Virus record (IMG/VR): IMGVR_UViG_3300042392_001599
Span: 1 to 21,742 of that record
Source: a virus
Reading direction: 5' to 3' (one strand)
Length of the DNA stretch: 21,742 nt
Part shown: positions 4,320 through 21,742 of the stretch, piece after piece
Layout of the letters: the number at the start of each line of letters is the position of its first letter
How positions within the stretch are numbered: the stretch's first letter is position 1
Notes under the pieces: model-generated
Seen by the model: the letters and a program-made list of their open reading frames with translations, nothing else
Databases searched by the model: none
Told to the model about the DNA's origin: nothing
Program-made: the position numbers and the translations under genes

Positions 4320-4508
4320 ATGCCTAAATTTATAACAACCATGATGAATTCTTCAGAAGCTAATGCCTTAGGTATTACAACAACATGCCTTGCAGCTCTA
4401 AATAGTTTCTTCCAAGTATTTAATCCCTTAATAACAGGATTGTTTTATATAGCTTCTATAACTTGGCTATGCATTCAAATTTATTATAAGATTAAAATTA
4501 AAAAATGA
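4320..4508 (+). CDS. Putative holin (small membrane protein next to the endolysin)
   Basis: A 62-residue protein with one strong membrane segment, roughly residues 34-56 (FNPLITGLFYIASITWLCIQIYY), ending in a basic tail (KIKIKK). A second, weaker hydrophobic segment around residues 16-33 could pair with it. Size, charged C-terminus and a 4-nt ATGA overlap with the GH19 endolysin gene fit a holin that releases the endolysin to the cell wall. Holins have little sequence conservation, so the call rests on topology and neighbourhood. Alternatives are an antiholin or a small baseplate-associated membrane protein. Confidence 0.65.
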   Translation: MPKFITTMMNSSEANALGITTTCLAALNSFFQVFNPLITGLFYIASITWLCIQIYYKIKIKK

Positions 4509-5107
4509 TGAACTTAGAAAAATTAAAAGGACATATTCCAGATACAGTAATCGCTCAACTTCCTGATACAATTGTTAAATTTGAGTTAAACACACCATTG
4601 CGTTTAGCTCATTTCCTTGCTCAAGCTGGACATGAATCAGGTGGATTTAAGTTAGTGAATGAAAATTTAAACTATGGTGCTAAGGGTTTAACAAGTATAT
4701 TTAAAAAATATTTCCCAACAAATGATATGGCTTTACTTTATGAACGTAAACCAGAAAAAATAGCCAATATTGTTTATGCTTCACGTATGGGAAATGGTGA
4801 TAAAGCATCAGGTGAAGGATATAAATTTCGTGGACGTGGTTATATCCAATTAACTGGAAAAGATAATTATAAAGCTTTTGATAATGTAGTTGAAGAAAAT
4901 ATTATTGAAAATCCTGATTTAGTAGCTACAAAATATCCATTAATGTCAGCTGGTTGGTTCTTTCATAAAAATGGTTTACATAAATTAGCTGATGGTGGTG
5001 CAACTGACGCTGTTGTAACAACAATTACAAAACGTGTTAATGGAGGTACTATTGGATTAGCTGATCGTATTAAGCATTTTAAGGAATACTATGCTTGTTT
5101 AGCTTAA
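4505..5107 (+). CDS. GH19-family endolysin (chitinase-like lysozyme)
   Basis: A 200-residue protein that is essentially one glycoside hydrolase family 19 domain, expected to cut the peptidoglycan glycan chain. Two family hallmarks are visible: AHFLAQAGHESGGF with the putative catalytic acid E44 in the H-E-S-G-G motif, and ASGEGYKFRGRGYIQLTG (residues 101-118), where the G-R-G-x-I-Q-L-(T/S)-G substrate-groove motif is intact. Further on, SAGWFFHKNGL and ITKRVNGGTIGLADR match the conserved W-F and N-G-G elements. There is no signal peptide or wall-binding domain, consistent with release through a holin, the product of the gene overlapping its start by 4 nt. ATG at 4505 is followed by a second ATG at 4508, and either could be used. 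Lying between baseplate genes, it could instead be a virion-borne lysozyme; a free endolysin is more likely. Confidence 0.93.
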   Translation: MMNLEKLKGHIPDTVIAQLPDTIVKFELNTPLRLAHFLAQAGHESGGFKLVNENLNYGAKGLTSIFKKYFPTNDMALLYERKPEKIANIVYASRMGNGDKASGEGYKFRGRGYIQLTGKDNYKAFDNVVEENIIENPDLVATKYPLMSAGWFFHKNGLHKLADGGATDAVVTTITKRVNGGTIGLADRIKHFKEYYACLA

Positions 5108-13321: not shown

Positions 13322-15340
13322 ATGTCAGCAAATACTTTTAAGAGACTTAATGTAGCGGATACTTTTGTAGTACCTTATACGGCTAACAAAAGTTGGGACA
13401 TAGAATCCTCTTCATTTGCTGAAAACAGAATTGTAGTTAATATAGGAGTTAATCATAGTGAATCAATCTTTGATCCAACTACAGACTATATAACTAACGG
13501 TCAGTATGATAGATTAGTATATGATTCTATTAACTTAGTTTATTATCCTAATTTTCTACCCACATCCTCTAACTTATACGCATCAGGAAAAATAAGTACT
13601 ATCTACAATGATGGTACTTTATCAACTTCATCATATAGTAAAGGACATATTAATTTAGGAAATATAGATACTATAAAATATTTCCCAACAGGAACAGCAG
13701 CCGCTATTTATGTTTTAAATATACCTAGAAATTTAACTAGTGAAAAAATATTACCCACTACTTTTGAGGTATATTTTAGTAGTGGATCATCAAATTATAA
13801 AATATATGATGATGGAAATTATAACTTATTTTACAGTGGTAGTCCTGTAAGTTCATCTCGTGGAACTGTATTAAATTATGGTTCACATATAGGTAATGTA
13901 TTTTATGAACAAAACGTTGCTATATTAACTGTTATTCCTAACAGTATAAGATTAACAGGATGGAGAGGAATTGATCCTTATTGTATAGGAGCCTCACCTT
14001 CAGTAACTCCTTCTATAACTAAGAGTACATCAGTATCTAAAACACCTAGTGTAACCCCAAGTGTAACTCCAAGTGTGACTCCAAGTATAACAGTAAGTTC
14101 TACACCTGCTGATACACCTAGTGTAACTCCAAGTGTAACTCCAAGTATAACAGTAAGTTCTACACCTTCTGGTACACCAAGTGTAACTCCAAGTATTACT
14201 ATTAGTGCTACACCAAGTATTAGTATAAGTGATACACCAAGTGTAACAGTAAGTAACTCAATAAGTAGTACACCAAGTGTTACCAATACTCCTAGTACTA
14301 CTCCTAGTGTCACACCTAGTATTACTCCTACTGTCACTCCTAGTCTCTCAATAAATGCAAGTATTAGTGTAACACCTACTGTAACAACAAGTATAAGTGT
14401 TAGTCCATCATTTAGTAATACTCCAAGTATAACAGTAAGTGTTACTCCAAGTGTTACTCCAAGTATTTCTATTAGTAAATCCATCAGTGTTACTCCAAGT
14501 ATAACTGTAAGTAATTCTATTAGTAATACTCCATCTATTACTACAAGTACTAGCATTAGTGTTACTCCAAGTATATCAATTAGTAAATCTATTAGTAACA
14601 CACCTAGTGTTACTCTAAGTGTTACTCCAAGTATATCAATAAGTAAATCAATATCAAATACTCCAAGTATATCAATTAGCAAATCTATTAGTAATACACC
14701 AAGTATTACACCAAGTATAACTAGAAGTATATCAATATCTAGAACACCAAGTGTTACACCAAGTAAAACAGTAACAAAATCACCAAGTATCACACCTAGT
14801 ATTTCAATTAGTAAATCTATTAGTAATACACCGAGTATAACAGTAAGTAAAACACCAACAGTAACACCAACACCTACAACGAGCCCAGTTCCAACTTCAA
14901 GTGTTGATGTGTATGCTCAAAGAGCACTAAGTATAGGAAATAGTTGTGGAATATATTATAAATTAGGAATCACTGGAACTGAAACATTTTTAGCAACTGT
15001 GAGTTCAGAGGTATGTTCATTGCGAGGTACAATTACCGGTATACCTAACGGAACAGTACTTTATATTGGATTTAGATCAATATCAGGATACATTAGATAC
15101 AACGCTGTAAACTCAGCTAGTGCATGTCCATCAAATCTTAATACATATTGTGGAACAGACTATAACCTAACCATAACTGGTGGTACATCAATTTCACTAA
15201 CAGCTTATGTTAATGCTGGTGCATACGAATTGTGTACTCCAATTTATACTACACCAACAGTAACACCGACAAAAACACCAACAAAATCACCAAGTATAAC
15301 ACCAAGTATTACTGTGAGTACATCACGCCCATCAACATAA
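13322..15340 (+). CDS. Repeat-stalk fibre-like protein 1 (TPSV/SISK tetrapeptide repeats)
   Basis: A 672-residue modular protein. Residues 1-224 form a beta-rich N-terminal domain (MSANTFKRLNVADTFVVPYT onward), probably the virion anchor. Residues 225-526 are a near-continuous tetrapeptide repeat of the form (T/S)-(P/I/V)-S-(V/I/K/N), about 75 units, with Ser almost always at the third position. Residues ~527-642 form a compact module with a C-P-x6-C pair (C602, C610). The last ~30 residues return to TPT/TPS repeats. The composition suggests an extended, rigid or glycosylated stalk carrying a distal domain, as in an adhesive fibre; receptor binding is inferred. The start is ATG 13322, since in-frame TAG lies at 13301 and no other ATG intervenes. 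An ATG at 13311 opens only a 14-codon out-of-frame ORF. Confidence 0.75.
   Translation: MSANTFKRLNVADTFVVPYTANKSWDIESSSFAENRIVVNIGVNHSESIFDPTTDYITNGQYDRLVYDSINLVYYPNFLPTSSNLYASGKISTIYNDGTLSTSSYSKGHINLGNIDTIKYFPTGTAAAIYVLNIPRNLTSEKILPTTFEVYFSSGSSNYKIYDDGNYNLFYSGSPVSSSRGTVLNYGSHIGNVFYEQNVAILTVIPNSIRLTGWRGIDPYCIGASPSVTPSITKSTSVSKTPSVTPSVTPSVTPSITVSSTPADTPSVTPSVTPSITVSSTPSGTPSVTPSITISATPSISISDTPSVTVSNSISSTPSVTNTPSTTPSVTPSITPTVTPSLSINASISVTPTVTTSISVSPSFSNTPSITVSVTPSVTPSISISKSISVTPSITVSNSISNTPSITTSTSISVTPSISISKSISNTPSVTLSVTPSISISKSISNTPSISISKSISNTPSITPSITRSISISRTPSVTPSKTVTKSPSITPSISISKSISNTPSITVSKTPTVTPTPTTSPVPTSSVDVYAQRALSIGNSCGIYYKLGITGTETFLATVSSEVCSLRGTITGIPNGTVLYIGFRSISGYIRYNAVNSASACPSNLNTYCGTDYNLTITGGTSISLTAYVNAGAYELCTPIYTTPTVTPTKTPTKSPSITPSITVSTSRPST
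13994..14900 (+). repeat. 12-nt-period repeat tract coding Ser/Thr/Pro tetrapeptides
   Basis: About 900 nt of degenerate 12-nt units approximating AC-N-CC-N-AGT-(G/A)T-N, in phase with the reading frame. Ser at the third codon of each unit is nearly always AGT although other Ser codons are common elsewhere. Larger copies are also visible: a 47-nt segment at 14061-14107 recurs at 14121-14167 with one mismatch (60-nt shift), and a 29-nt segment recurs at 14576, 14672 and 14804 with one or two differences. This points to growth by unequal recombination or slippage. Confidence 0.9.
15248..15337 (+). repeat. Second, short TPT/TPS repeat at the C-terminus of fibre-like protein 1
   Basis: Thirty codons (residues 643-672) reading TTPTVTPTKTPTKSPSITPS and ending STSRPST before the stop. 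Ending on a stalk repeat rather than a folded tip is odd and could mean a lost distal module. Confidence 0.85.
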
Positions 15341-15346
15341 TAAAAA

Positions 15347-16471
15347 ATGAATTCTAGGACTTTAAATACAAATATTACAAGAATAAAATTTCAAAACAGC
15401 ATGGTTGTTTATGAAACTTTTATGAAATGTACTATAAAGGACTATGAATTTAATTTAAGTTATAATCCAAGTTTACTATCAGGTAGTCAAGCTGCTTTAG
15501 TTCCATATAGTAGTTCTATCAATGGTAGTGTATTTTATAATCCTACGGGATCTGAATATTTTGGAATATTAAAAGATTTTACTACAGGTTCTATATCAGG
15601 ATCAGATTTTTCTCCATATGTTACTACAATTGGGTTATATAATGATTCTCAAGATTTATTAGCTATAGCTAAAATGTCATCACCTATGCCTATATCAGAT
15701 AATACTGATATGACATTTTTGGTAAAATGGGATACACAGTGGATTGAAAAAACATTCTTTATTCCATCTCCTACTTCAACACCATCTACTTCAGTACCTG
15801 CTAGTATACCAGCTACACCTAGTGTGACTCCAAGTATATCAATAAGTAAAACACCTTCTGTCTCACCAAGTGTGAGTAAATCACCAAGTATTACACCTAG
15901 TGTAACACCTAGTATAACAGTATCTGTTTCACAAGGAACATCAATATCAGTAACACCTAGTGTTAGTATAAGTACATCAATAAGTATTACACCTAGTGTA
16001 ACACCTAGTATAACACCATCTTCTTCACCACCATGTCCTGCTCCAAGAGAATATTATATCTCAGTATCAGGTAATTTCTATTGGAAAGATTGTAATGGAA
16101 ATGATTTATATACTTATCAAGAAGTTGGTGATTACATCTGTATATGCAACGCTACTGATTTACCTGTATCATTAAATGGTGGTGCTGGATATTTAACTGG
16201 GGGAGGATGTGATTGTGGAGTATTATATTCATCTCATAATGTTAGACTAAACAATACAGGATATCCAGCAATATGTTCTGTATCACAACAGTTAGTTTAT
16301 ACGACTTTTAATGTTGGAATTTCACCTGGTAATACAGTCTATACAGACCCTACTTTAATTAATGAAGTTCAAGGTTATACTTATATAGTTGAAGCTAATA
16401 GTGGAAGTTCAATTTATATGTTAGGAACAACAACTGGTATAGTAGGGTCAGCGATTGGTATTACTTGTTAA
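15347..16471 (+). CDS. Repeat-stalk fibre-like protein 2
   Basis: A 374-residue modular protein. Residues ~24-129 share a domain with the C-terminal end of the 12235-13311 product (FSPYVTTIGLYNDSQDLLAIAKM and MTFLVKWD). Residues 140-229 are the same kind of Ser/Thr/Pro tetrapeptide stalk as in the neighbours. From C230 the protein is cysteine-rich: CPAPREYYISVSGNFYWKDC, then ICICNATD and GGGCDCG. A final module follows with NTVYTDPTLI...YTYIVEANSGSSIYML, a G/N-x-x-x-Y-T-D-P pattern I associate with small repeated modules in Bacteroidota-related surface and phage proteins. The protein ends in Cys. Likely role: tail fibre or adhesin, with the N-terminal end docking on the virion and disulfide-stabilised or metal-binding distal modules. 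No signal peptide, as expected for a virion protein. Confidence 0.72.
   Translation: MNSRTLNTNITRIKFQNSMVVYETFMKCTIKDYEFNLSYNPSLLSGSQAALVPYSSSINGSVFYNPTGSEYFGILKDFTTGSISGSDFSPYVTTIGLYNDSQDLLAIAKMSSPMPISDNTDMTFLVKWDTQWIEKTFFIPSPTSTPSTSVPASIPATPSVTPSISISKTPSVSPSVSKSPSITPSVTPSITVSVSQGTSISVTPSVSISTSISITPSVTPSITPSSSPPCPAPREYYISVSGNFYWKDCNGNDLYTYQEVGDYICICNATDLPVSLNGGAGYLTGGGCDCGVLYSSHNVRLNNTGYPAICSVSQQLVYTTFNVGISPGNTVYTDPTLINEVQGYTYIVEANSGSSIYMLGTTTGIVGSAIGITC
15764..16033 (+). repeat. Ser/Thr/Pro stalk repeat in fibre-like protein 2
   Basis: Ninety codons of TPSV/SISK-type repeat, the same 12-nt period as in 13994-14900. Short exact DNA stretches are shared between the two genes, for example CCAAGTATATCAATAAGTAA, which gives material for recombination between them. 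Confidence 0.85.
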
Positions 16472-16505
16472 TATAGAATTTAATAAAACAGTACAATAAA
16501 TAAAA

Positions 16506-17201
16506 ATGTCAAATACAGGATATAAAGCATATGCAAACCTAGAAGAATACTATTTAGATAATGGTGTGGCTACAGGTTTAATCAAATCTAATGATATAGG
16601 TGATCCTGATTATATAGCACCTGTTTTAGATTATGTATTTTGTCCTTTACCTTCTATTTCTCCTAGTAGAACACCAGCATTAAGTAGAACACCAAGTGTA
16701 ACACCAAGTGTAACTCCAAGTATTAGTATTTCAGCAACACCATTAGCAACTCCTAGTATCACACCAAGTATAACAATTACACCTTCTATAACAAAAACAC
16801 CAACACCTACTCCATCTAAAACTGTAACACCTAGTGTGACAACATCTGCTTCATCACCTACACGTTATACTTTAACTACATTTGCTTTAAATGATTCCTC
16901 TTTACCTTCTAATGCTACTAAATTACAATATTCAACAGTAAGTAGTACTGGTCCTTGGACTGATTTAGGACCATTTAGTGGATATCCTGGAAATTGTACA
17001 TTTAAAGGAGCTCAATCATTTAATAGTGGAACTATAGTTTATGTAAGAGCCATTAATGAATTTGGTTATCAATATAGACACGCTGTTAATACTGATAACA
17101 CCACAAACTGTCCAACAGCAGGATCAGATTTGTGTTTCTCAACAATTCCTATGAATAGTAATAGAACTAAAGCATTCTTTATTAGTACTTTTACATGTTA
17201 A
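16506..17201 (+). CDS. Repeat-stalk fibre-like protein 3
   Basis: A 231-residue protein with the same plan in miniature. Residues 1-48 are a short N-terminal segment (YKAYANLEEYYLDNGVATG...). Residues 49-118 are a TPSV/TPSI/TPTP stalk. Residues ~119-231 form a C-terminal module that aligns with the module of fibre-like protein 1: GTIVYVRAINEFGYQYRHAVN against GTVLYIGFRSISGYIRYNAVN, both followed by C-P-x6-C (here C202 and C210). The last residue is Cys. The N-terminal piece is much shorter than in the two neighbours, so it may assemble differently or rest on another fibre protein. It is the last structural gene before the DNA-metabolism genes. Confidence 0.7.
   Translation: MSNTGYKAYANLEEYYLDNGVATGLIKSNDIGDPDYIAPVLDYVFCPLPSISPSRTPALSRTPSVTPSVTPSISISATPLATPSITPSITITPSITKTPTPTPSKTVTPSVTTSASSPTRYTLTTFALNDSSLPSNATKLQYSTVSSTGPWTDLGPFSGYPGNCTFKGAQSFNSGTIVYVRAINEFGYQYRHAVNTDNTTNCPTAGSDLCFSTIPMNSNRTKAFFISTFTC
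16650..16859 (+). repeat. Ser/Thr/Pro stalk repeat in fibre-like protein 3
   Basis: Seventy codons of the same tetrapeptide repeat, grading into TPTPTPSK near the end. Unit length and AGT Ser codon preference agree with the two longer tracts. Confidence 0.85.
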
Positions 17202-17216
17202 AAATAAAATAAGTTT

Positions 17217-17669
17217 ATGAAAAGATGGTTATGGTATTTAGATGATGGAAGTGTAGAACCATTTCCTGAAGATCAAATTAATGGATATTATGGTTTCACT
17301 TATATAATTACTAATTTAGAAACAAATAAGTTTTATATAGGTAAAAAAGCATTTATTCATAATAAAAAGAAAAAACTCACCAAAAAAGAAATCGCTGAAC
17401 AATCAGGTCCAGGACGTCGAGCTACAACACGAATTGATCAAGTAGATAGTGGATGGAAATCATATTATGGTTCATCTAAAGAATTATTAACTGATATTAA
17501 GTTATTAGGTGAAGATAAATTTGAACGTGTTATAATACATCTAGCTAAAAACAAAAAACAACTTACATATTTTGAATTGCAAGAACAAATAACATACAAT
17601 GTTTTATTCACAGACAATAGCTACAATGATAATATAGCTGGAAAGTATTTCCGTAAAGACTTTGCTTAG
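17217..17669 (+). CDS. GIY-YIG family endonuclease (SegE-like)
   Basis: A 150-residue protein. The GIY-YIG core is recognisable: GFTYIITN (Y29 in the GIY position, with F-T-Y replacing G-I-Y) and FYIGKK (Y40-I41-G42). The segment W80...YYGSSKELLTDIKLLGEDKFER and then YFELQEQ supply the conserved Gly-Ser-Ser-Lys/Glu element and the candidate catalytic Glu (E120 or E123). This layout, with SSKEL...LG...FER...E..Q, matches small SegE-like proteins of T4-like phages. Such enzymes nick or cut DNA and may be homing endonucleases or act on competing phage DNA; which applies here cannot be read from the sequence. No separate C-terminal DNA-binding domain is visible. It sits exactly between the fibre block and the replication block. 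Confidence 0.82.
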   Translation: MKRWLWYLDDGSVEPFPEDQINGYYGFTYIITNLETNKFYIGKKAFIHNKKKKLTKKEIAEQSGPGRRATTRIDQVDSGWKSYYGSSKELLTDIKLLGEDKFERVIIHLAKNKKQLTYFELQEQITYNVLFTDNSYNDNIAGKYFRKDFA

Positions 17670-17696: not shown

Positions 17697-18635
17697 ATGA
17701 CTAACGCGGCCTTATTACATACAATAAATAGTGTGTTAGGTACTGGTAAAAAAACTAGTAATAATAACTATGCTTATAAGTGTCCTTTCTGTACACATCA
17801 TAAAATGAAATTGGAAGTAAATGTTGTGCCTAACTCTAAAGGAGAAAATTTTTGGCATTGTTGGGTTTGTAATGCTAAAGGAAAAACATTAGTAGGTTTA
17901 TTTAAAAAAGCAAAGTCACCCACATATAAGATAGCTGAGTTGAAATCAATGTTGAATTTTTCATCAACTCAAGAAGAGAAAGAAATTGTTATTAATAAAA
18001 TACATTTACCTAAAGAATATAAACCACTTATTAACCTACAACGTACAGATATCGTCGCTAAACACGCTTTAATGTATTTAAAAAAACGAGGTATCACCAA
18101 GTCAGATATATTGAAATATAATATAGGTTATTGTGAAGAAGGCAGATATGCCAATAGAGTTATTATACCATCTTATGATAAAGACGGAAGTATAAATTAT
18201 TTTATAGCCAGGGATTTAAATCCTGACTCAACAAAAAAATATGATGCTCCTAAATGTAATAAGAATGAAATGATTGGTCTTGAATATTTCATTAATTGGA
18301 ATGTTCCTGTTATATTATGTGAAGGTATGTTTGATGCTATTGCTATTAAACGCAATGCAGTACCATTATTAGGTAAAACAATACCAAGAGCATTAATGAT
18401 GAAACTAATTGATCCACAAGTTAAAACAGTATACGTATCTTTAGATAAGGACGCTTTAAAAGATGCTTTACAATACGCTGAACAATTACTCAATCTAGGT
18501 AAAGACGTTTATTTAATTGATTTGCAAGACAAGGATCCCTCTGATATGGGATTTGAAAAATTCACCACGTTAGTTCATGACGCCGAACAATTAAGTTTAG
18601 GTGAACTAATTTACAAAAAACTCGAATTAGCATGA
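17697..18635 (+). CDS. DnaG-type DNA primase (zinc finger plus Toprim; T4 gp61-like)
   Basis: A 312-residue protein that should make RNA primers for phage lagging-strand synthesis. An N-terminal zinc-binding domain is visible as CPFC (C29, C32) and HCWVC (C55, C58). The primase core follows: YANRVIIPSYDKDGSINYF (residues 151-169) then ARDL, and the Toprim metal-binding motifs VILCEGMFDAIAI (E209, D213) and VYVSLDKDA (D250, D252). All expected metal ligands are present. The length is near that of T4 gp61 (about 340) and there is no helicase domain, so a separate helicase is expected elsewhere in the genome. The gene overlaps the next by 4 nt (ATGA), indicating coupled synthesis with the nuclease. 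Confidence 0.93.
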   Translation: MTNAALLHTINSVLGTGKKTSNNNYAYKCPFCTHHKMKLEVNVVPNSKGENFWHCWVCNAKGKTLVGLFKKAKSPTYKIAELKSMLNFSSTQEEKEIVINKIHLPKEYKPLINLQRTDIVAKHALMYLKKRGITKSDILKYNIGYCEEGRYANRVIIPSYDKDGSINYFIARDLNPDSTKKYDAPKCNKNEMIGLEYFINWNVPVILCEGMFDAIAIKRNAVPLLGKTIPRALMMKLIDPQVKTVYVSLDKDALKDALQYAEQLLNLGKDVYLIDLQDKDPSDMGFEKFTTLVHDAEQLSLGELIYKKLELA

Positions 18636-19414
18636 TAGACAAAAACGTTAATATCATTAAAGATCCAAAAATCAAACGAATTGTAGAATACAATGAGGGA
18701 GATAAACAAGTAAATGTTTTAGATAGTAGATTTTACAGACGCGGAGAAGAATATTATCCATCTGTTACATCAGTATTAAATTTCTTTCCTAAAAATCAAT
18801 TTTTCCATAACTGGTTAAAAGATGTAGGTCATAATAGTGAAATAATAGCTAACAAAGCAGCTTCAGAAGGTACTCAAGTACATAATGCAGTTGATACCTT
18901 TCTTAATGGAGGTGAAATCCATTGGTTAGATGAATATGGAAAAGCTTTATATAGTCTAGACACATGGAAAATGATTCTTAAATTTGCAGACTTTTGGAAC
19001 ACACACAAACCAGAATTAGTAGTAACTGAATATCATGTATTCTCAGATGAATTTAAATACGCTGGTACTACAGATATTATTTGTAAAATAAATGATAAAT
19101 TATGGTTATTAGATATTAAAACATCTAATTCACTTCATACATCACATAATTTACAATTAGCAGCTTATGCTAAAGCATGGAATGAAACTCATGATACTAC
19201 AATTGAAGAGACAGGTATTCTATGGCTTAAAGCATCTACACGTAGTGAAGGTAAAGGAGATAAGATACAAGGTAAAGGATGGGAACTAAAACATATAAGT
19301 AATATTGATGATAATTTTGAAATGTTCATGAATATATATAAAATATATAAATTAGAAAATCCAAATTCTAAGCCTATGACTGAATCATTACCTATTAGTA
19401 TTAAGATAATTTAA
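18632..19414 (+). CDS. PD-(D/E)XK superfamily nuclease (RecB/exonuclease-like)
   Basis: A 260-residue protein with the RecB-type PD-(D/E)XK core in order: GTQVHNAVD (H84), VVTEYHVF (E133), YAGTTDIIC (D148), LWLLDIKTS (D161, K163) and HNLQLAAYAKAW (Q175, Y179). These are the metal- and DNA-binding residues of the family. It likely trims or resects DNA during phage replication or recombination. The four-cysteine cluster of Cas4/AddB-type iron-sulfur nucleases is absent (C151 is the only Cys), so it is not a Cas4. Coupling to the primase by an ATGA overlap suggests work in the same replication-recombination pathway. Exonuclease versus endonuclease activity cannot be told. Confidence 0.88.
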   Translation: MIDKNVNIIKDPKIKRIVEYNEGDKQVNVLDSRFYRRGEEYYPSVTSVLNFFPKNQFFHNWLKDVGHNSEIIANKAASEGTQVHNAVDTFLNGGEIHWLDEYGKALYSLDTWKMILKFADFWNTHKPELVVTEYHVFSDEFKYAGTTDIICKINDKLWLLDIKTSNSLHTSHNLQLAAYAKAWNETHDTTIEETGILWLKASTRSEGKGDKIQGKGWELKHISNIDDNFEMFMNIYKIYKLENPNSKPMTESLPISIKII

Positions 19415-19436
19415 TAACATTTGATAAATAATTATT

Positions 19437-19453
19437 AGTGAATCAAATTCACT
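19437..19453 (+). promoter_or_regulatory. Perfect 7-bp hairpin ending 3 nt before the TTG start of the receptor gene
   Basis: AGTGAAT, a CAA loop, and ATTCACT form a perfect inverted repeat, then TAA and the TTG start at 19457. It is not followed by a T-run, so it does not look like an intrinsic terminator. Candidate roles are an operator or an RNA structure limiting ribosome access. A partial match to the Bacteroidota -7 element (AACATTTG against TAnnTTTG) lies at 19416-19423, with no convincing -33 TTG. Confidence 0.45.
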
Positions 19454-19456
19454 TAA

Positions 19457-21703
19457 TTGAAACATTTATTATTTTTATTGTTGTGTCCTTTATTTTTATT
19501 TTCTCAAGATACAATATTCAACAAAAAGTTAGACAATATTACAGTTACCTCAGTAACTAAAAAAGATAACAATGCAGCTGTTCTTAACATAATTAGGAAC
19601 AGCTCTGTTGTTTCTGATGGGATATCAATTGAATTTATTAAAAAAACACCAGACCGTACTGTTGGTGATGTTCTTAAAAGAATAAATGGTGTTACTATTC
19701 AAAATGATAAGTTTGTATTAGTGCGTGGTTTAGCAGATAGATATAATCTAGCCTTACTAAATAAAACACTACTCCCATCAACTGAACCAGATAGAAGAGC
19801 ATTTTCATTTGACATTATACCCGCAGGATTAATTGATAATATTATTATCGCTAAATCAGCAGCTGCTAATCTACCAGGTGACTTTGCAGGAGGTATAGTT
19901 CAAATAACAACTAAAGATGTATCTAGCCGTTTTTTTTCTTTAAACACAGGATTAAGTTATGGAACAGTGTCTACGTTCCAAAAATTCAAATCCGTGGAAT
20001 ATACTCCTTTCCCACAAAATTTTCCTTCTACATATCAATTCCGCATAGGTAGTAATGGTGATAAACGAGCTTATACTCGATTAGTTAATTCACCTACAAT
20101 GAAAATTATTAATTCTATACCAAATACAAACAGTTCATTTTCTTTTGGACTAAAAAAGAATAAATGGAATCTAATATTCAGTTCATTATATAGAAATTCA
20201 TATTCAATAAATTATACTGATAGACAAGACTACCAATCATCAACTGAGTTAGCATATAAGTATAAAGATACTTCTTACTCTACTACTCAATTATTAAATG
20301 GATTAGCTAATATCACTTACATAGGTAAAAACAAATATAGCTTAAAGACATTATTTAATCATCAAATAGAACAACTATATCTAACTCGTAATGGGGATAA
20401 TTATGATAATGTTCAAGATGTAAGAAGTAATGCATCTAATCATGTAATTAAAACAGTTATAAACTCTCAATTTGAAGGTAAAATTAAAACATTAGATTTT
20501 AATTTAGGTTATAACTTAATGCTACGTGATCAACCAGATTATAGAGTTAATCCAATTACAAAATCATTAAGTATAAATGAACCATATACTGTAGCTTGGA
20601 GAGATACATATCGTTTTTGGAGTATAATGGATGAAAATAGTTTTAATGGTGGTGTAAATAAAGTATTTAATAATATAAAAATTGGAGCAAATTATCTTAA
20701 AAAAATAAGAAATTTCCAAGCTAGAATATTCAGATATGAGGCAGCAGATATGTTAAATGAAATCACTAACAATACAGATAAGTATAAAGCCGATTTTGAT
20801 TTAGCAACTACATATGCAATGTATGATAATGATTTTGGAAAGTGGAAGTTAAATACTGGTTTAAGATCAGAATATAATCTATTTAATGTTAACACAGCTG
20901 ATTTTAGTGGTCAAAAAGTAAATGTAAATAGAAAATATTTAGATGTACTTCCATCATTAAATTTATCTTATAATTTAGATAAAACTAAATTTAGATTATC
21001 TGCTAGTAAAACACTAGCACGTCCTGAATTTAGAGAAGTAGCTAATTTTGCCTACTATGATTTTGTTCGTAATGCACAAATATTAGGAAATTCCAAATTA
21101 GAAAAATCAGACATATATAATTTAGATTTAAAATACGAATACTACTCTAAACCAGATGAAAATGTATCTATAGCATTGTTTAGTAAGAATTTTATCAAAC
21201 CAATTGAACAAATCGTAGCTGACGGATCTGTTCCATCTAACCTATTACTTACCTTTACTAACCCAAACAAAGCAACAGTGTATGGTATTGAGTTTGAACT
21301 ACATAAAAAAATTAATAATTGGTTAGATTTTTATACCAATTCCTCTTTAATTCACTCTGAGGTAAAGATAAATAATATAAAAAGGCAACTACAAGGACAA
21401 TCAAATTATATTATAAATGGTGGTTTAAATTTCCATAAAAATAAAAATACACTAAACATTACATATAATCGTGTAGGTGATAGATTATCTGCTGTTGGAT
21501 TTCAAGGCTACTCAGATATATTTGAAAATAGTAGGAATATCTTAGATATAGTATACCTAAGAAAAATAAATAAAAGCGAAATTAAGATTGCTATAAACGA
21601 TGTTTTCGCTCAACCTTCAATATATTATCAAAAAACTAAAGGCAACTTAATAACAACAAATAACGAACAAACAATCTCATTAACAATTAATTTTAATTTA
21701 TGA
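19457..21703 (+). CDS. TonB-dependent outer-membrane receptor, Bacteroidota type
   Basis: A 748-residue protein that should form a plugged 22-strand barrel importing a ligand across the outer membrane with TonB energy. A signal peptide is clear (MKHLLFLLLCPLFLFSQ, cleavage near S16/Q17). A TonB-box-like ITVTSV lies at 28-33. The plug carries VGDVLKRINGV (69-79), FVLVRGLADRYN (86-97), LPSTEPDRR (106-114), DIIPAGLIDNI (119-129) and NLPGDFAGGIVQITTKD (138-154), classic plug motifs. The rest alternates as beta strands and ends SLTINFNL, a plausible last barrel strand. The start is TTG: TAA stands directly upstream in frame, no early ATG exists, and only TTG gives the full signal peptide. The carboxypeptidase-like N-terminal domain common in Bacteroidota receptors is absent. 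It follows the phage nuclease gene by 42 nt on the same strand with no obvious composition change. The ligand cannot be predicted. Confidence 0.94.
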   Translation: MKHLLFLLLCPLFLFSQDTIFNKKLDNITVTSVTKKDNNAAVLNIIRNSSVVSDGISIEFIKKTPDRTVGDVLKRINGVTIQNDKFVLVRGLADRYNLALLNKTLLPSTEPDRRAFSFDIIPAGLIDNIIIAKSAAANLPGDFAGGIVQITTKDVSSRFFSLNTGLSYGTVSTFQKFKSVEYTPFPQNFPSTYQFRIGSNGDKRAYTRLVNSPTMKIINSIPNTNSSFSFGLKKNKWNLIFSSLYRNSYSINYTDRQDYQSSTELAYKYKDTSYSTTQLLNGLANITYIGKNKYSLKTLFNHQIEQLYLTRNGDNYDNVQDVRSNASNHVIKTVINSQFEGKIKTLDFNLGYNLMLRDQPDYRVNPITKSLSINEPYTVAWRDTYRFWSIMDENSFNGGVNKVFNNIKIGANYLKKIRNFQARIFRYEAADMLNEITNNTDKYKADFDLATTYAMYDNDFGKWKLNTGLRSEYNLFNVNTADFSGQKVNVNRKYLDVLPSLNLSYNLDKTKFRLSASKTLARPEFREVANFAYYDFVRNAQILGNSKLEKSDIYNLDLKYEYYSKPDENVSIALFSKNFIKPIEQIVADGSVPSNLLLTFTNPNKATVYGIEFELHKKINNWLDFYTNSSLIHSEVKINNIKRQLQGQSNYIINGGLNFHKNKNTLNITYNRVGDRLSAVGFQGYSDIFENSRNILDIVYLRKINKSEIKIAINDVFAQPSIYYQKTKGNLITTNNEQTISLTINFNL

Positions 21704-21742
21704 AAAAGATATTAACATTATTAGCTATCATTGGATTATTCT
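21700..21742 (+). CDS. Start of an exported protein coupled to the receptor (3' partial)
   Basis: ATG at 21700 overlaps the stop of the receptor gene by 4 nt (ATGA). The 14 visible residues, MKKILTLLAIIGLF, are the basic start and hydrophobic core of a signal peptide, or of a lipoprotein signal if a Cys follows. The overlap implies coupled translation with the receptor, so the product probably acts with it at the cell envelope. Nothing more can be said from the visible part. Confidence 0.75.
   Translation, partial: MKKILTLLAIIGLF

Follow-up and report, generated by a model that had tools for sequence, protein, structure and literature searches.

What a complete TonB-dependent receptor (TBDR) gene does directly behind the replication genes of a phage is the question raised by the locus considered here, which lies at the end of the window, the 21,742-nucleotide (21.7-kb) linear IMG/VR virus record that was analyzed as a whole. 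The evidence assembled below makes it likely that the gene belongs to a cassette serving as an auxiliary phosphorus-acquisition module, a TBDR and an ElpS/FII-like surface lipoprotein taken from host phosphorus-starvation genes, and suggests that the phages carrying it keep the infected cell in phosphorus for viral DNA copying. Phage DNA represents a heavy phosphorus demand, and most phosphorus-supply genes described to date come from cyanophages (pstS, phoA) or, like phoD, ppa, and others, from soil phages; the virus studied here seems to provide Bacteroidota with a whole outer-membrane scavenging pair, while its sisters provide a phosphate porin or lipid-recycling enzymes, and the cassette would thereby tie freshwater viruses to phosphorus cycling.

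Besides T4-like baseplate genes (gp25-type and baseplate wedge subunit), the window encodes a chitinase-like endolysin, long fibre-like proteins, a SegE-type endonuclease, a primase and an exonuclease. The endolysin gene (GH19; 4505-5107) sits between the baseplate wedge and the next structural genes, and the fibre-like proteins (13322-17201) have long S/T-P repeats (SITPSVTPS...), which also yield a long spurious reverse-strand open reading frame at 13978-14793. There follow, all on the + strand, the SegE-type GIY-YIG endonuclease (17217-17669; Pfam SegE_GIY-YIG, E 3e-29), the phage DNA primase (17697-18635; PHROG 47, E 3e-47), the phage exonuclease of PD-(D/E)XK type (18632-19414; PHROG 298, E 2e-38) and, after a gap of 42 nt, the TBDR gene (19457-21703), which has a TTG start and encodes 748 residues with no internal stop. 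Its product has a probable signal peptide (MKHLLFLLLCPLFLFS; 19457-19504, assigned by reading the sequence rather than by a predictor), a plug domain (19613-19894; PF07715, residues 53-146, E 2e-7) and a beta-barrel part (20672-21685; PF14905 or OMP_b-brl_3, residues 406-743, E 4.5e-25), both matches being over the Pfam cut-off, and is a protein of the TonB-dependent receptor/transporter class, with plug and outer-membrane beta-barrel in one chain. It is a short form, in which Pfam finds no N-terminal CarboxypepD_reg domain. The AlphaFold model is a plug-and-barrel structure (mean pLDDT 72), with Cir, FecA, PhuR, and FyuA as its best PDB matches in Foldseek (E about 1e-19). A search of the window with the PF00593 profile gave no match, because the barrel belongs to PF14905, and the match of the phage TBDR to TIGR01782 (TonB-Xanth-Caul) is weak (174 bits, with a cut-off of 310). 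The GC content of the gene is 27%, versus 30% in the rest of the window. The initial annotation had described a complete TBDR 42 nt behind a primase-nuclease pair, with no tRNA between phage genes and receptor, and is borne out on both points, no tRNA having been found; what it missed is that the TBDR is half of a two-gene cassette, whose second gene, for a lipoprotein, starts at 21700.

Of this partner the window holds the first 43 nt (21700-21742, + strand), which overlap the TBDR stop in an ATGA and encode a lipoprotein-type start (MKKILTLLAIIGLF...) before the contig end cuts the gene. In relatives the protein is conserved and about 400 residues long (complete, for example, at L001:12244-13446), with an invariant lipobox cysteine, Cys16. 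Its model is a confident beta-helix (pLDDT 89) with weak matches to pectate lyases in the PDB (best E 0.016), and a Pfam search of the protein returned no domain. Neither cassette protein found relatives in a sequence search of the PDB, and PHROGs holds no family for the TBDR, the lipoprotein or the Oar-like TBDR described below. Scans with the two proteins gave 106 viral stretches encoding relatives of the TBDR, the best 80 of them at 63-91% identity, and 130 for the lipoprotein. Of 80 lipoprotein loci, 73 have a TBDR directly upstream and the other seven begin at a contig end or near one; in 70 of the 80 the two genes overlap by -4 (ATGA). These counts are inflated by kinship among the phages. 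About half of the phage TBDRs, judged by length, have an extra N-terminus, and long and short forms alternate in the phage tree (seven changes by parsimony, four of them forced by supported branches); since PF13715 thus varies among copies, it was not treated as essential to the pair type.

That such a gene could be host sequence flanking a prophage, or the product of a chimeric assembly, had been allowed for by the initial annotation, and is in keeping with a window contig that ends soon after the TBDR and with records that are all metagenomic fragments. However, the order endonuclease-primase-exonuclease-TBDR recurs in eight contigs (L001, L002, L003, L007, L011, L014, L031, and L080), where the SegE-type endonuclease (cluster 25) is the kept upstream neighbour in the window's clade. 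The checks proposed at the outset turned out likewise: close relatives of the gene occur on at least 106 IMG/VR contigs and, where these are long enough, phage genes resume downstream of the lipoprotein, a T4-type Gp23 capsid gene being present on 13 of the 29 longer contigs searched and a sheath gene on nine. Because the exonuclease-TBDR junction recurs in independent contigs and phage genes follow, border and chimera are excluded as accounts of it, hardly any probability being left to either, and the TBDR is a phage gene. It might still be held that the two genes are neutral hitchhikers with no function in phages, as their patchy presence would allow, 44 of 80 sites being empty. This, too, is extremely improbable: all 74 uncut phage TBDRs are intact (at least 747 residues) and none is broken, pairwise dN/dS is about 0.05-0.13 (NG86, window-clade pairs), and the cassette persists through changing contexts, with 41 different gene clusters upstream of it across loci. 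Selection therefore keeps the cassette while it moves, and the cassette fits the usual description of an auxiliary metabolic gene, being host-derived, intact, carried in a phage genome and under purifying selection. On the 171-kb contig of one relative (L047), the match to the Gp23 capsid protein (G515:C1:113418-114815) reads through two in-frame TAA codons, which may reflect an intron, recoding or a sequencing error.

The source of the cassette is indicated by its bacterial relatives. Among GTDB genomes, a scan located close ones only in Aquirufa antheringensis (65%) and one Cytophagaceae MAG; when 201 genomes of the family were surveyed, one further Aquirufa-like genome emerged, the sister genome G418 (L200/L260; the A. 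antheringensis island is L081). The nearest bacterial copies, in Aquirufa, are 65% identical for the TBDR and 72% for the lipoprotein and have the same gene order as in phages, and a tree groups phage and Aquirufa TBDRs apart from those of other Bacteroidota (by a quick method and with long outgroup branches), so that the bacterial search and tree called for in the initial annotation both lead to Aquirufa; the phage TBDRs probably came from Aquirufa-like hosts in one or two transfers. Downstream of the pair, both Aquirufa genomes encode a Phosphodiest/Metalloenzyme-family enzyme and a PHO4/PitA transporter. Nearby in A. antheringensis are an alkaline phosphatase, a phosphonate HD oxygenase and a PhnX-like hydrolase, and in G418 the pair is flanked by a second PitA, an OprP-type porin and a pair comprising the metallophosphoesterase PlcP and a glycosyltransferase. 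The next nearest bacterial pair, in genome G295, has a group of Pit (PHO4), PhoU_div and OprP-type porin genes on one side and a glycosyltransferase-PlcP pair on the other. Thus, the pair adjoins phosphorus genes in Aquirufa, G418, G295, and G093, though less so for more distant copies: the lipoprotein family has a match in 203 of 297 Bacteroidota genomes, with a TBDR adjoining nearly always among the best matches, and an adjoining PitA is a feature of its closest bacterial relatives only, not of the family at large. When 435 phage gene clusters and four site genes were compared with Aquirufa, 27 of them had a match at E < 1e-15, and the best Aquirufa matches of the TBDR, lipoprotein, lone lipoprotein, OprP-type porin and PlcP fall within ~13 kb of a 2.5-Mb genome. 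This suggests that the cassette was derived, as judged from sequence, from the genes with which an Aquirufa-related freshwater Bacteroidota host responds to phosphorus starvation. The island differs from the phage cassette in that the pair is embedded with PitA, a phosphatase-like gene, porin and PlcP, and in that its TBDR is of the long form (CarbopepD_reg_2).

The exonuclease (18632-19414) forms the left border of a variable site, as emerged from a census of 80 related viral loci with relatives of this gene, in which the next gene was typed. The site is empty, with an ordinary phage gene next, in 44 loci; it holds a GT2 glycosyltransferase and then PlcP in 13, a TBDR (with the lipoprotein where uncut) in six, an Oar-like TBDR in three, and a lone lipoprotein and a contig end in one each, and the remaining 12 include one porin and two further TBDRs. 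The porin (L347:6827-8005), directly after the exonuclease, is a phosphate-selective porin O/P (Porin_O_P, PF07396) with 67% identity to the Aquirufa island porin. The lone lipoprotein stands at the site without a TBDR (L344:6820-7986), and the two further receptors (L393:6908-9424 and L417:6819-9356) are of a third TBDR type, whose resemblance to an Aquirufa gene is weak and partial. GT2 and PlcP-like metallophosphoesterase pairs were seen in phages at L037:8879-10335, L014:13065-14494, L342, L349, L351, L369, and others; the phage PlcP (PF00149/PF12850) is 47% identical to the Aquirufa gene ranked 32nd of 1967 by the 11-bp repeat matrix described below, and the pair is possibly concerned with lipid remodelling for phosphorus. 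The Oar-like TBDR (OMP_b-brl_4 and CarboxypepD_reg, ~1090 residues) occurs at L006:6534-9872, where a strong 11-bp repeat lies upstream, and in L069, L070, L341, and L365, and is also found full-length in G507, G511, and G527. The exonuclease nearest to that of the window (93%) is in L341, which keeps the window's upstream element and carries the Oar-like TBDR; the same element before a different gene means that the gene was exchanged and the element was not. Taken more widely, and here we lean only slightly in favour, T4-like phages of freshwater Bacteroidota would have a dedicated site for swapping host phosphorus-starvation envelope genes, many of them under a host PhoB switch, so that the virus rebuilds the infected, phosphorus-starved cell to import organic phosphorus from outside and to draw on the phospholipids of the cell itself.

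Two kinds of upstream element bear on control of the cassette. In the window, the interval between exonuclease and TBDR contains a promoter-like element (ATAAATAATTATTAGTGAATCA; 19424-19445, + strand) found as an EM motif, with a score of 16.0 versus a 99% control quantile of 10.3; it is conserved before phage TBDRs and is a putative promoter. The first motif to emerge (TAATTATTnnnGAACTA, at about -35) was put down to a phage promoter-like element rather than a Pho box. Expectation maximization on 56 de-duplicated phage upstream regions yielded TTAATAA-N4-aTAATAT, in which two 7-bp half-sites, in many cases joined by a third, are spaced at a period of 11 bp. Known Pho boxes likewise consist of half-sites repeated with an 11-bp period. 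The repeat scores at least 12 before 37 of the 56 phage cassettes versus four of 294 control genes, the phage-side counts not being independent because the phage sequences are related, and three of the four control genes are linked to phosphorus, namely two PitA genes and one Oar-like TBDR of a phage. The host provided an independent test, in which a matrix trained without bacterial sequence ranked the 1967 genes of G418: the PitA genes came 5th and 8th, the TBDR 21st and PlcP 32nd, and the joint ranks of both PitA genes and the TBDR were equalled by none of 300 column-shuffled matrices. Other highly placed genes were a SusC gene with SusD adjoining (1st), an OmpR-type response regulator (6th) and an FAD oxidoreductase of the island (15th); the Aquirufa counterpart of the Oar-like TBDR, with a score of 5.8, lacks a strong repeat. 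The repeat probably binds PhoB and would be a candidate PhoB box for Aquirufa-like Bacteroidota. No clear 11-bp repeat was found upstream in the window or in L001, L002, L003, L007, L011, and L031, and the window clade has the phage-type element alone, at about -33.

On the phosphorus reading, both TBDR and lipoprotein would reach the host outer membrane during infection; the lipoprotein, at the surface, would bind or help process an organic or complexed phosphorus source, which the TBDR, powered by host TonB, would bring into the periplasm. Host phosphatases would free phosphate (Pi) there for uptake by host PitA, and phage DNA synthesis would thereby be spared a phosphorus-shortage stop. In repeat-bearing phages the starvation signal of the host itself would turn the cassette on, and in the window clade it would be driven, behind the replication genes, by a phage-type promoter element in place of the PhoB-box-like repeat.

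With border, chimera and hitchhiking assigned so little weight above, the readings that compete with this one concern function. TBDRs are known as phage receptors, and the phage copy might serve in superinfection control, replacing or titrating the receptor used by competing phages or acting as a decoy on debris, a role that would suit the occurrence of several TBDR types at one exchange site. Yet it leaves unexplained the constant lipoprotein partner, the PlcP, glycosyltransferase and phosphate porin that alternate at the site, and the PhoB-box-like repeat and kinship with the phosphorus island, and we consider it unlikely. Auxiliary nutrient uptake had been among the roles listed in the initial annotation, and the uptake part stands, although the substrates named there were iron complexes, cobalamin and glycans, whereas the evidence indicates phosphorus. 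That one of those other nutrients is imported, phosphorus being incidental, finds some favour in the fold matches to siderophore and haem receptors, though that fold is common to all TBDRs, and in the pectate-lyase-like beta-helix of the lipoprotein model (weak PDB matches). It is, however, an equally improbable account given that the host neighbours and the alternative site genes are phosphorus-related and that Flavobacterium johnsoniae pairs of like type respond to depletion of Pi, not of Fe or N (PMC8115612).

The acquisition of phosphorus thus preferred has counterparts in known systems. In F. johnsoniae, the TonB-dependent transporter (TBDT) Fjoh_0545 and the lipoprotein FII (Fjoh_0546) belong to PUSIV and are part of the phoBR operon, and Pi depletion alone induces them (PMC8115612). 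Compared by architecture and literature, both systems have a TBDT with Plug and PF14905, then an outer-membrane lipoprotein, of pectin-lyase type in F. johnsoniae and modelled as a beta-helix here, in a phosphorus neighbourhood; unlike the F. johnsoniae pair, the present one is phage-borne and has the ATGA overlap, and the window TBDR has no N-terminal PF13715. In Caulobacter crescentus, ElpS (CC0170) is a Pi-starvation surface lipoprotein that adjoins the TBDR CC0171 (PMC2996285), a likeness again of architecture and literature, not of sequence, to a system that differs in phylum, in its type II secretion neighbours and in being chromosomal (PMC2996285). Cyanophage pstS and phoA are host-derived phosphorus-supply genes, some under host PhoB control; pstS encodes a periplasmic binding protein, whereas the genes described here encode an outer-membrane active transporter and a surface lipoprotein, in Bacteroidota phages (PMC10976474). 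Lipid remodelling linked to phosphorus stress involves a metallophosphoesterase, PlcP, beside a glycosyltransferase (PMC4796936); the phage pair shows the same adjacency but is phage-borne, with a glycosyltransferase that is GT2, not the one beside the Aquirufa gene. That phages carry phosphorus acquisition genes, and that phage genes can come under the control of host PhoB, is already known (PMC10987575; PMC10976474). A literature search, which covered subscription papers little, so that an earlier report is possible, found none of a TBDR, a TBDR-lipoprotein pair, phosphate porin or PlcP encoded by a phage, and within the literature searched both the swap site and the form of the module, an outer-membrane TBDR with its lipoprotein, appear to be new. 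Low-Pi TBDTs and lipoproteins of Bacteroidota are abundant in nature and poorly understood, and the import of organic phosphorus by such pairs becomes testable.

Among phages with names, matches were confined to five records at <31% identity, and no isolate with a known host was found to carry the cassette; four of the five matches are short, unannotated faecal records, possibly bacterial. In the fifth, a 634-kb phage record (LR745206.1; L337:6404-10244), the lipoprotein precedes the TBDR, the reverse of the usual order, with identities of 39% and 27%, and this reversed pair may represent a second phage lineage with an independent acquisition.
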